From: Hyphomicrobiales bacterium
GTDB taxonomy: Bacteria > Pseudomonadota > Alphaproteobacteria > Rhizobiales > Beijerinckiaceae
Length of the DNA stretch: 7,050 nt
NCBI GenBank assembly: GCA_028290085.1
Contig: JAQGKN010000520.1
Span: 1 to 7,050, forward strand
Direction: 5' to 3'
In this document: piece after piece, positions 5,455-7,050 of the stretch
Layout of the letters: every line of letters begins with the position of its first letter
Position numbering within the stretch: position 1 is the first letter of the stretch
Notes under the pieces: generated by a model
What the model was told of the DNA's origin: nothing
Databases searched by the model: none
What the model saw: the letters and a program-made list of their open reading frames with translations, nothing else
Program-made: the position numbers and the translations under genes

Positions 5455-5461
5455 TCAGCCG
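5448..5461. repeat. 14-bp perfect palindrome holding both convergent stop codons
   Basis: CGGCTGATCAGCCG is centred between 5454 and 5455. The TGA of the Nudix gene (plus strand) and the TGA of the lipoprotein gene (minus strand, read as TCA) are adjacent with no spacer. There is no loop or T-run, so it is a poor terminator; it may simply follow from two abutting genes with a shared GG(C)-stop ending. Confidence 0.55.
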
Positions 5462-5796
5462 GGATAGCCGTGGCGGCTCTTGGAGGCGGACACAAGGCTG
5501 CGCGCCTCGCCGTCGCGACCGGCGGCGCAGGCCGAGCGGGCGCTGGAGAGTTCGCCCTGGATGTTCTCGTACACGGACTTGTTGACGTTGCCGGTCTCGG
5601 CATCAGCCTTCAGCACGGCGTCGTAGCGCCCGATGACCGCCGAGCAGCCGCTGCCTTCGGGCATCACGACATGGGGGTAGAGGGAGCGGGTCGCCGCCGG
5701 TTCTGTAACCAGAGCGGTGGGCTGCGAGCCCGCGTTGCAACCGGCGAGCAGCGGAGCGGTCGCGGCGAGGAGGGCGAGTGTGCGGAGAGCGATCAT
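5455..5796 (-). CDS. Small predicted lipoprotein, conserved hypothetical type
   Basis: A 113-residue exported protein. From the ATG at 5796 it begins with a hydrophobic signal sequence and a lipobox LLAGC whose cysteine is residue 20, the site for lipid attachment and signal-peptidase II cleavage; the mature protein should be anchored to a membrane facing the periplasm. The mature part has a low-complexity linker (Thr, Ala, Pro), then a compact domain with C51 and C90, which could form a disulfide. The segments IGRYDAVLKADAETGNVN, ARSACAAGRDGEA and SKSRHGYP resemble, from memory, small Hyphomicrobiales lipoproteins of unknown function. An AAAGGA site lies 11 bases upstream of 5796; the longer frame from 5850 would put a charged stretch in front of the signal and has no ribosome-binding site. 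It is divergent from leuA and convergent with the Nudix gene. No function can be assigned. Confidence 0.75.
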   Translation of the reverse strand: MIALRTLALLAATAPLLAGCNAGSQPTALVTEPAATRSLYPHVVMPEGSGCSAVIGRYDAVLKADAETGNVNKSVYENIQGELSSARSACAAGRDGEARSLVSASKSRHGYPG

Positions 5797-5807
5797 GCGG
5801 TTTCGAA

Positions 5808-5813
5808 TCCTTT
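5808..5813 (-). promoter_or_regulatory. Ribosome-binding site of the lipoprotein gene
   Basis: On the minus strand, AAAGGA sits 11 bases before the ATG at 5796. The spacing is slightly long but it is the only purine-rich site near any candidate start, and it favours 5796 over 5820 and 5850. Confidence 0.5.
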
Positions 5814-5829
5814 GCGGCATTCGCGGCAA

Positions 5830-5859
5830 AGAATCGATGCGCGCCGCCAAGAGGTCAAG
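5830..5859 (-). promoter_or_regulatory. Possible promoter of the lipoprotein gene
   Basis: On the minus strand, CTTGACC (5853-5859) gives a -35 of TTGACC, 5 of 6 to consensus and matching the alphaproteobacterial CTTGAC form. After 17 bases comes GATTCT at 5830-5835, a weak -10. A transcript start near 5823 would fit the ATG at 5796 and would exclude the upstream in-frame start at 5850. Confidence 0.35.
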
Positions 5860-5878
5860 CTAGGCAAGCTACCTTGCC
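5856..5878. repeat. Direct and inverted repeats between divergent promoters
   Basis: CAAGCTA occurs at 5856-5862 and again at 5865-5871, nine bases apart. Overlapping it, GGCAAG (5863-5868) and CTTGCC (5873-5878) form an inverted repeat with a 4-base centre. The block sits between the two candidate -35 boxes facing opposite ways and overlaps both edges, a natural place for a regulator to bind. No named regulator is recognised. Confidence 0.4.
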
Positions 5879-5903
5879 AGCGGCGCCCATCGTCGGTTAT
5901 GAA
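5874..5903 (+). promoter_or_regulatory. Probable promoter of the leuA leader transcript
   Basis: TTGCCA (5874-5879), 5 of 6 to TTGACA, is followed after 18 bases by TATGAA (5898-5903), 4 of 6 to TATAAT. Transcription would start near A5910, giving a leader of about 278 bases before leuA. That is long enough for the leader peptide and hairpins seen downstream. The match is by eye. Confidence 0.45.
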
Positions 5904-5988
5904 AGGTACAGGCCGCAGGGGCCGATATTCAGCCGAGGACGCCGTGGCACAAGACGCCACCCTGAAGACGACCATCGCGGCGGGCCAC

Positions 5989-6072
5989 ATGGCTCCGCTG
6001 ACGCATGCGCTTCTGCCGACCTCGCAGCTTTCCCTGTCGTTCTCCGGGCTGCTTCTCCTTATCCGCCCCTGA
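5989..6072 (+). CDS. Leucine-rich leader peptide of leuA
   Basis: A 27-codon frame from ATG 5989 to TGA 6070-6072 contains nine Leu codons. Four are consecutive near the end (CTG CTT CTC CTT, 6049-6060), followed by Ile-Arg-Pro and stop. A Leu-codon run just before the stop, 115 bases upstream of the leucine biosynthetic gene leuA and followed by strong RNA hairpins, is the classic plan of an amino-acid attenuator peptide. Its job would be to sense charged tRNA-Leu by ribosome stalling, not to act as a protein. The 3' end of the frame is firm; the start is not. A GTG at 5944 in the same frame has GAGGA four bases upstream (5935-5939) and would give 42 codons. The ATG at 5899 would lie in the proposed -10 box. 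Confidence 0.7.
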   Translation: MAPLTHALLPTSQLSLSFSGLLLLIRP

Positions 6073-6187
6073 GCGCCGGCCGGGCTTATAGCCTGGGCAC
6101 TCAGGGGTCGCGACATCGAACCAGCCCATTCACGCCCCGAGCCCAGCACGATCAGCGGTTCCGGGCTGACAGACCAGGATCAAGCCC
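6043..6187 (+). promoter_or_regulatory. Leucine-responsive attenuator region of leuA
   Basis: The RNA of this region can form competing structures. CCCCTGAG (6066-6073), which includes the leader-peptide stop, pairs perfectly with CTCAGGGG (6100-6107). Inside it, 6075-6077 pair with 6096-6098 and 6081-6086 with 6090-6095 around a TAT loop, about 17 pairs in all. CCGGGCT occurs at 6044-6050 (within the first Leu codon of the run), 6080-6086 and 6161-6167. Its complement AGCCC occurs at 6123-6127, 6140-6144 and 6183-6187, the last touching the leuA ATG, so a 6163-6167/6183-6187 hairpin would enclose the ribosome-binding site. No T-run follows any stem, so I infer control by translation or Rho rather than a classical intrinsic terminator. 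Confidence 0.6.
6174..6179 (+). promoter_or_regulatory. Ribosome-binding site of leuA
   Basis: CCAGGA ends eight bases before the ATG at 6188 and supports that start over the internal ATG at 6224. It lies in the loop of a possible GGGCT/AGCCC hairpin (6163-6167 with 6183-6187), and CCTGG at 6092-6096 could also pair with it, so its exposure may be controlled. Confidence 0.65.
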
Positions 6188-7050
6188 ATGCCCATTCCGA
6201 CACAGCCGCAGACCGCCGAAGACATGCCCGCGCCCGCAAACGAGCGCGACCGCGTCGTCATCTTCGACACGACCTTGCGCGACGGCGAGCAATCGCCGGG
6301 CGCCTCCATGACGCTCGACGAAAAGCTGGAGGTCGCCGACCTGCTGGACGAGATGGGCGTCGATATCATCGAGGCTGGTTTCCCCATTGCCTCGGAAGGT
6401 GATTTCGAGGCCGTCTCGGCCATCGCCAAGCGCATCAAGAACGCGACCGTCACGGGCCTGGCGCGCGCGTCCTTCAAGGACATCGACCGCGCGGCCGAGG
6501 CGCTGCGTTTTGCGCGCCGCCCGCGCATCCACACCTTCGTCTCCACCTCGCCGCTGCACATGAAGTACAAGCTGCAGAAGGAGCCGGAAGAGGTTCTGGC
6601 CATGGTGACCGCGCAGGTCGAGCGCGCGCGCAAATTCGTCGAGGACGTCGAATGGTCCGCCGAAGACGGCACGCGCACGGAGATGGACTTCCTGTGCCGT
6701 TGCGTGGAGGCTGCGATCAAGGCCGGCGCCACGACGATCAATATTCCCGACACGGTGGGCTACACCGTGCCTGAGGAATATGAGGCGATCTTCCGCAATG
6801 TTCGCGAGCGCGTACCCAATGCGGACAAGGCGATCTTCTCGGTGCATTGCCACAACGACCTGGGGTTGGCAGTTGCCAACACCATCGCGGGCGTTCGCGG
6901 CGGCGCGCGGCAGATCGAATGTACGATCAACGGCATCGGCGAACGCGCTGGTAACGCCGCGCTCGAAGAGGTGGTGATGGCCTTGCGCACGCGCGCCGAC
7001 ATCCTGCCCTATCGCAACCAGATCGAGACGACGATGCTGATGCGCTCATC
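6188..7050 (+). CDS. leuA: 2-isopropylmalate synthase, N-terminal part
   Basis: This enzyme condenses acetyl-CoA with 2-ketoisovalerate to 2-isopropylmalate, the first committed step of leucine synthesis, and is normally feedback-inhibited by leucine. The window holds the first 287 residues; the frame runs off the 3' edge, so roughly half of a typical 520-560-residue protein, including the C-terminal regulatory domain, is not seen. The HMGL-like TIM-barrel motifs are clear: [13 protein letters not shown] at residues 26-38 (with R31 and metal-binding D32/D27), EAGFPIAS at 62-69, the metal-binding [12 protein letters not shown] with H220 and H222, and [14 protein letters not shown] at 248-261. 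About 20 residues rich in Pro, Gln and Glu precede the barrel. The family match to LeuA rather than homocitrate or citramalate synthase rests on overall sequence and on the leucine-rich leader upstream. Confidence 0.96.

Follow-up and report, generated by a model that had tools for sequence, protein, structure and literature searches.

A widespread, apparently undescribed leader RNA upstream of alphaproteobacterial leuA, with a leucine-codon reading frame that ends in a covarying hairpin

We analysed a 7,050-nucleotide stretch of DNA from a Hyphomicrobiales bacterium (the window) and found that its leuA gene is preceded by a real, widespread leader RNA that is apparently undescribed. This is a conserved leader RNA whose open reading frame (ORF) ends in a covarying hairpin, and in our judgement it is fairly probable that ribosome stalling on its leucine codons raises leuA translation, as predicted. 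We give about even weight to a class-wide leu element in which the Leu codons would sense leucyl-tRNA, the same bases would act as an anti-Shine-Dalgarno (anti-SD) strand and the stop codon would be built into the hairpin, designated P1. The codons and the gene point to leucine as the likely signal. The first-pass annotation of this DNA had proposed a leader peptide and an attenuator-like RNA before leuA; the comparisons bore out, for much of the Alphaproteobacteria, the leucine-rich peptide together with an RNA that is conserved, covaries and goes with leuA, whereas the window contains no intrinsic terminator.

The leader peptide ORF lies at 5944..6072 on the forward strand and comprises a GTG start and 42 codons, ten of them for Leu, ending in LLLLIRP and the stop. 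Its Shine-Dalgarno (SD) sequence, GAGGA (5935..5939, forward strand), was assigned from the GAGG-preceded in-frame start seen in relatives. The Leu run (6049..6060, forward strand), consisting of the codons CTG, CTT, CTC and CTT (CTGCTTCTCCTT), encodes LLLL and is the predicted stall site. As first noted for the frame ending at 6072, nine of its last 27 codons are Leu codons, four of them consecutive at 6049-6060, and these coordinates hold. When 5910-6187 was shuffled 20,000 times with a first-order Markov model, a 27-codon frame with at least nine Leu codons, including four consecutive ones, arose in a single shuffle. The end and the Leu content of the original frame were retained, but its start was not: the mechanical open frame extends 5' to 5470 without a stop, whereas the conserved start is likely to be GTG 5944, which is the best reading of the sequence. 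Among 33 same-genus leaders, 32 have a GAGG-preceded start in this frame that is open to the TGA, and none has one in either of the other two frames. As in leader-peptide regulators, a short ORF with a conserved start, predicted to be translated, carries codons for the end product close to its stop.

Downstream, leuA (2-isopropylmalate synthase; 6188..7050, forward strand) is cut off by the end of the window. It was recognised by matches to PF00682, NF002087 and TIGR00973, the scores of the last two falling under the whole-protein cut-offs, as expected, because the gene is cut off. Its SD sequence, read directly from the DNA, is AGGA (6176..6179, forward strand). A lenient pattern picked out a promoter-like site at 5874..5903 on the forward strand (TTGCCA at 5874-5879, an 18-base spacer and TATGAA at 5898-5903) that would start the RNA near 5910; the lenient TTG/TA pattern recurred at a similar position in 25 of 33 same-genus leaders, a count that carries no chance control. 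A stricter sigma-70 scan found no promoter upstream of the leader in the window. Further upstream, the window contains the end of an acetolactate synthase small subunit gene (3-311, PF10369), ilvC (413-1447), two adjacent SnoaL-like ORFs (1743-2171 and 2159-2629) between ilvC and an ORF of the endonuclease/phosphatase family, a PhzF-family ORF and a NUDIX ORF. An ORF without a family match (5455-5796, reverse strand) lies just before the leader. The source genome assembly is 70% complete and in 682 contigs.

Hairpin P1 (6066..6107, forward strand), identified by covariation, is formed by 6066-6073/6100-6107, 6075-6077/6096-6098 and 6081-6085/6091-6095. The outer arms, CCCCTGAG (6066-6073) and CTCAGGGG (6100-6107), pair perfectly over eight bases, and the leader stop TGA (6070-6072) is located within the 5' arm, 115 bases ahead of the leuA ATG at 6188; this arrangement, described in the first-pass annotation, was confirmed. 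Given that 1058 of 5000 shuffles contained a perfect 8-base stem closing a loop of 3-40 bases, so that such a stem is not rare alone, and that the fold energy of the leader region is only modestly low (z −1.82), the case for P1 rests on conservation. In an alignment of 36 leaders from relatives (A1), from which 16 of 52 rows, all of the same genus, were left out, 95.6% of cells were paired and 9 of 15 P1 pairs had changed on both sides. Eight of 500 shuffles reached this number of doubly changed pairs, and none reached the values of the four other measures. A larger alignment (A3, 101 rows), fitted to a covariance model and hence leaning towards it, had 94.4% of cells paired, 12 of 15 pairs changed on both sides and 186 doubly changed cells as compared with 53.5 in shuffles, with none of 500 shuffles as high on any measure; slid controls scored far below P1. 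For A3, 100 sources were hand-picked, with similar loci and loci lacking leuA left out, and one antisense row (L265) was included in the pair counts and excluded from codon counts.

The stop codon itself covaries. It is TGA in 77, TAG in 12 and TAA in six of the 100 sense rows, in each case matched by the 3' arm, and in some genomes of family f44 the P1 core CCCC:GGGG has become CCUC:GAGG (L268, L272). These observations bear out the check proposed at the outset, namely an alignment of leuA upstream regions from relatives: P1 covaries strongly, stop included, and the Leu codons are kept. A conserved RNA structure that overlaps the end of the ORF, a second property of leader-peptide regulators, is thereby found through covariation. 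For own-genus sequences aligned over the stretch that begins at the Leu run and reaches leuA, the consensus fold consisted of P1 plus weak pieces only. Five of the 100 class rows (L281, L284, L270, L299 and L208) have no stop codon at the conserved place, though the model recognises the hairpin. Immediately 3' of the hairpin, L070, L091, L129 and L145 carry a second copy of CCCCTGA, which could pair with the P1 3' arm in place of the 5' arm.

Conservation of the Leu codons was assessed in two sets of leaders. In the 52 leaders of leuA relatives (own included), chosen independently of the covariance model, as were their 20 family representatives, the run ends in CTTA without exception, also in the representatives, and at least three of the last ten codons are Leu codons (median five). 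The model used to find the 100 sense class rows itself includes the end of the Leu run. All 100 of these rows close the run with a Leu codon (CTT 94, CTA 6), and 97 have Leu two codons earlier, where all four third bases occur. The middle codon is Leu in 53 rows and the Arg codon CGA in 44 (L-R-L); not every sensor, then, consists of Leu codons alone. The invariant CTTA, alongside free third bases elsewhere, is a mixture of codon-level and RNA-level constraint at the sequence level. Retention of Leu with free third bases, together with the in-frame start, suggests that the peptide is translated and that the Leu codons matter. L-R-L runs with Arg CGA were also present in 28 of 114 usable loci from a pattern scan, among the matches listed; examples from the two sets are L059, L065, L092 and L209, and in several L-R-L leaders the middle CGA pairs with a downstream UCGAAG.

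To survey the distribution of the element, leuA was sought in 61 genomes and detected at E up to 1e-80 in 55, the own genome among them; as the contig of L056 ends inside leuA, 54 upstream regions were readable. The Leu-codon end, the stop and the hairpin were present in 52 of these 54 (own included). The first-pass annotation had named relatives with leuA that lack both the Leu run and the paired arms as evidence against the leader; in two, L044 and L054, leuA is present and the element is missing, set against the 52 that have it. A covariance model (R1) built from 36 of the 52 leaders gave one strong sense match in the own genome, the next being the other strand of the palindrome (E 0.06). 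Of the genomes drawn from the order, 170 of 199 matched R1; the class draw gave 104 of 387 and a phylum-wide draw 82 of 397, with the own genome counted in all three. All of the phylum-draw matches listed were from the same class, the share of the draw outside the class being unspecified. The filters in these large searches were strict, and misses are therefore not proof of absence. With these filters, no genome of family f24, which belongs to the same order, was among the R1 matches in the order, class and phylum draws, and f24 accounted for 19 of the 20 misses listed in the phylum-wide draw. G059, the one f24 member among the 61 genomes, was one of those in which leuA was not detected at E up to 1e-80.

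The RNA is closely tied to leuA. Of 121 loci retrieved in the class and phylum scans (L182-L302), 117 held a leuA homologue, a few of the homologues being 25-28% identical to the LeuA of the window. The four loci without leuA (L287, L295, L296 and L297) were weak matches (E 0.001 to 0.006), and two of them were second matches in genomes with another match. An exact pattern scan of a public genome collection yielded at least 120 stretches; among the matches listed, the leuA match begins 9-144 bases after the hairpin in 119 of 120 loci, and the remaining one, L164, ends 133 bases after the hairpin. At L285, L290, L299 and L300 the leader stands before a LeuA homologue just 26-28% identical to that of the window; the RNA thus appears to follow the function even where the enzyme is a different one. 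In two loci of family f44, L240 (G272) and L251 (G078), the leader is followed by a small ORF and then by leuA. The small ORF is presumably cupin-like, judging from its translation, and given its position the leader may serve a two-gene unit.

We next compared the predicted pairing of each Leu run with the leuA SD region of its own genome and with those of other genomes. Of 101 rows, 96 were usable after exclusion of the antisense row and of four sequences whose leuA start could not be used, and a redundancy filter reduced these to 75; leuA starts were picked by a script that ranked in-frame codons by SD match. Across the 75 sequences, pairing with the own SD region averaged −11.87 kcal/mol as compared with −9.59 kcal/mol for swapped regions (z −7.7), with a permutation p of 0.0002, the floor of 5000 permutations. 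The preference persisted when L-L-L and L-R-L leaders were taken separately. Control segments gave differences of −0.03 to −0.46 (five within the leuA coding region) and −0.41 to −0.55 (three upstream), a small residue perhaps due to base composition. Codon shuffling agreed with the pairing outside the own genus, in related sequences whose p values are not independent, and the SD is matched by perfect 8-10-base complements of varying form in L042, L184, L206 and L209. The segment just upstream of the SD also prefers its own Leu run (−1.58, z −5.2), as do the 35 bases after P1 (own −11.86, swapped −10.6, p 0.0002), the difference for the first 19 of them being just −0.60; the SD is therefore not the sole partner of the run across the class. 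From these sequence comparisons, in many relatives within the class the sensor codons probably double as an anti-SD strand, and such pairing with the leuA ribosome-binding site points to translation control.

The genus of the window behaved differently in these analyses. Pairing between the Leu run and the SD was tried there in three tests and not found: complementarity in 18 non-redundant sequences gave a difference of −0.09 (p 0.41), the window ranked at 0.66, the codon-shuffle p for the genus was 0.93, and the longest complement was 5.82 for own and 5.56 for swapped regions. Instead, the own-genus run may pair with the segment just after P1. In two of seven 19-base windows the run favoured its own sequence over swapped partners (uncorrected p 0.002), the preferred segment lying 5-28 bases after P1, and post-P1 pairing beat codon and linker shuffles in 33 related own-genus sequences; for the whole 35-base post-P1 segment the value was −1.51 as compared with −1.35 and −1.19 for upstream controls. 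In the window, a minimum-energy fold predicts an outer helix (6046..6127, forward strand) between GGGCTGCTTC (6046-6055, Leu codons) and GAACCAGCCC (6118-6127), which is modestly supported across the genus.

These features fit a mechanism in which, in the resting RNA, the Leu run would cover the leuA ribosome-binding site, as in many relatives, or pair with the segment after P1, as is possible in the own genus. When leucyl-tRNA is short, a ribosome stalled on the Leu run would occupy it and free its partner; when leucine is present, the ribosome would reach the stop in P1 and depart, and the closed fold would return. In the own genus, translation initiation is our first guess for the gated step. 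For 166 sequences, without a shuffle control, the predicted mean cost of opening the leuA start fell from 7.1 to 4.7 kcal/mol on removing the RNA upstream of P1, which mimics a stalled ribosome, with a smaller drop, from 5.5 to 4.7 kcal/mol, in the own genus. With a ribosome at the stop, the mean predicted cost was 5.4, on average just 0.7 kcal/mol above the stalled state. The usual lack of a terminator, taken together with these opening-cost predictions, leads us to favour, for the class, a ribosome-controlled switch acting on leuA translation.

A search for intrinsic U-tract terminators returned no terminator-like site in window positions 5700-6300, and textbook transcription attenuation is therefore not what this DNA displays. 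A T-rich stretch within two bases of P1 was absent from 236 of 249 leaders and present in 13, so that a terminator is possible in a minority. The same lack of an intrinsic terminator in the window is consistent with Rho-dependent attenuation, which we regard as unlikely. Translation of the leader to its stop would leave about 115 bases naked, on which Rho would end transcription, whereas stalling at Leu codons would change folding or coupling and let RNA polymerase pass through. The length of the linker (in 166 sequences, 82 bases at the 5th percentile and 139 at the 95th) would suit Rho, and this option was raised earlier for terminator-less leaders of mycobacterial cys operons in the accessible text of PMC1262725. 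It leaves unexplained, however, the coevolution of the Leu run with the leuA ribosome-binding site across the class.

It is distinctly improbable that the RNA is instead a binding site for a protein or other ligand, with the peptide of little weight. Conservation of CTTA and CCCCTGA...TCAGGGGA beyond coding needs would agree with such a site, a 2005 proposal invoked a protein for the LEU element of Actinobacteria, and the effects of changes in a Streptomyces leuA leader departed from the predictions of classical attenuation, according to the accessible text of PMC1262725; however, the Leu codon retained with free third bases (97/100) and the in-frame start suggest a translated peptide. Classical transcription attenuation, in which an antiterminator hairpin and an intrinsic terminator hairpin would alternate as in enterobacterial leuL, we consider very improbable. 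A Leu-codon leader ORF with its stop in a hairpin arm is what such a system would have, and a second partner for the P1 3' arm is visible by eye in the four loci with a repeated CCCCTGA (L070, L091, L129 and L145). The 13 leaders with a T-rich stretch 0-2 bases after P1 also agree with it, as do 51 of 249 leaders with five T in eight bases somewhere between P1 and leuA, a count without a chance control; against these stand the terminator-free window and the 236 leaders without a T-rich stretch directly after P1. There is only a remote chance that a terminating ribosome would open P1 and the freed inner P1 strand cover the leuA start (in the window, GGGCUU and CCUGG with CCAGG and AAGCCC), completion thereby repressing and stalling relieving: the predicted leuA-start opening cost is about 4 kcal/mol higher at the stop than in the stalled state for the window and its nearest relative L005, but this pairing is not significant in the own genus (p 0.14) and not general in the 75 class sequences, in which the P1 3' half was rejected as a general anti-SD strand (difference +0.28, p 0.89) and the P1 interior gave −0.56 against the SD region (p 0.03, like the controls).

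If the class-wide reading is true, the element is a terminator-free translational leucine switch, either independent of the actinobacterial LEU element or shared with it, and leuA in most of the order (170 of the 199 genomes drawn), as well as in many other alphaproteobacteria, is under the control of a leucine-sensing RNA. As f24 gave no match, work on members of that family may have missed the leader.

No leader-family match was obtained from Rfam in the window at E up to 1, nor at gathering score in the leaders of 20 relatives. A sub-threshold Rfam lncRNA match elsewhere in the window was taken as chance. No alphaproteobacterial leuA leader turned up in the open papers searched; a 2004 survey of attenuators in proteobacteria may include one for leuA. 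The enterobacterial leuL-type attenuator is a Leu-codon leader peptide in front of the leu genes. The leader described here shares the Leu-codon leader peptide with leuL and differs in having no U-tract terminator in the window and no Rfam match. Within the same class, the Caulobacter ilvIH leader has been described as transcription attenuation (PMC4117421) and an alphaproteobacterial ilvB leader peptide is mentioned in PMC1273637; as far as the accessible texts go, both are cases of branched-chain amino acid genes, other than leuA, under leader-peptide control. The words leucine and isopropylmalate do not occur in the accessible text of PMC4117421, nor does the word leuA in those of two Sinorhizobium papers (PMC10117765, PMC7298713). 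The leuA leader peptide of the actinobacterium Corynebacterium glutamicum contains four consecutive Leu codons, according to the available part of PMC4046766, and, compared by description, resembles the present leader in placing four Leu codons before leuA.

The closest parallel in these sources is the LEU element of actinobacterial leuA, in which pairing between the Leu run and the leuA SD box has been proposed (Seliverstov et al., 2005; PMC1262725); in the available part of that paper, other attenuator parts are said to be missing and a pseudoknot lies inside the base stem. Compared by description, both systems have a leader ORF with a Leu run directly upstream of leuA. The LEU-type base stem between the Leu run and the SD is supported across the alphaproteobacterial class and was not found in the window's own genus. 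In Actinobacteria, as that available part describes it, a pseudoknot sits within the base stem, whereas here a simple covarying hairpin holds the stop codon.
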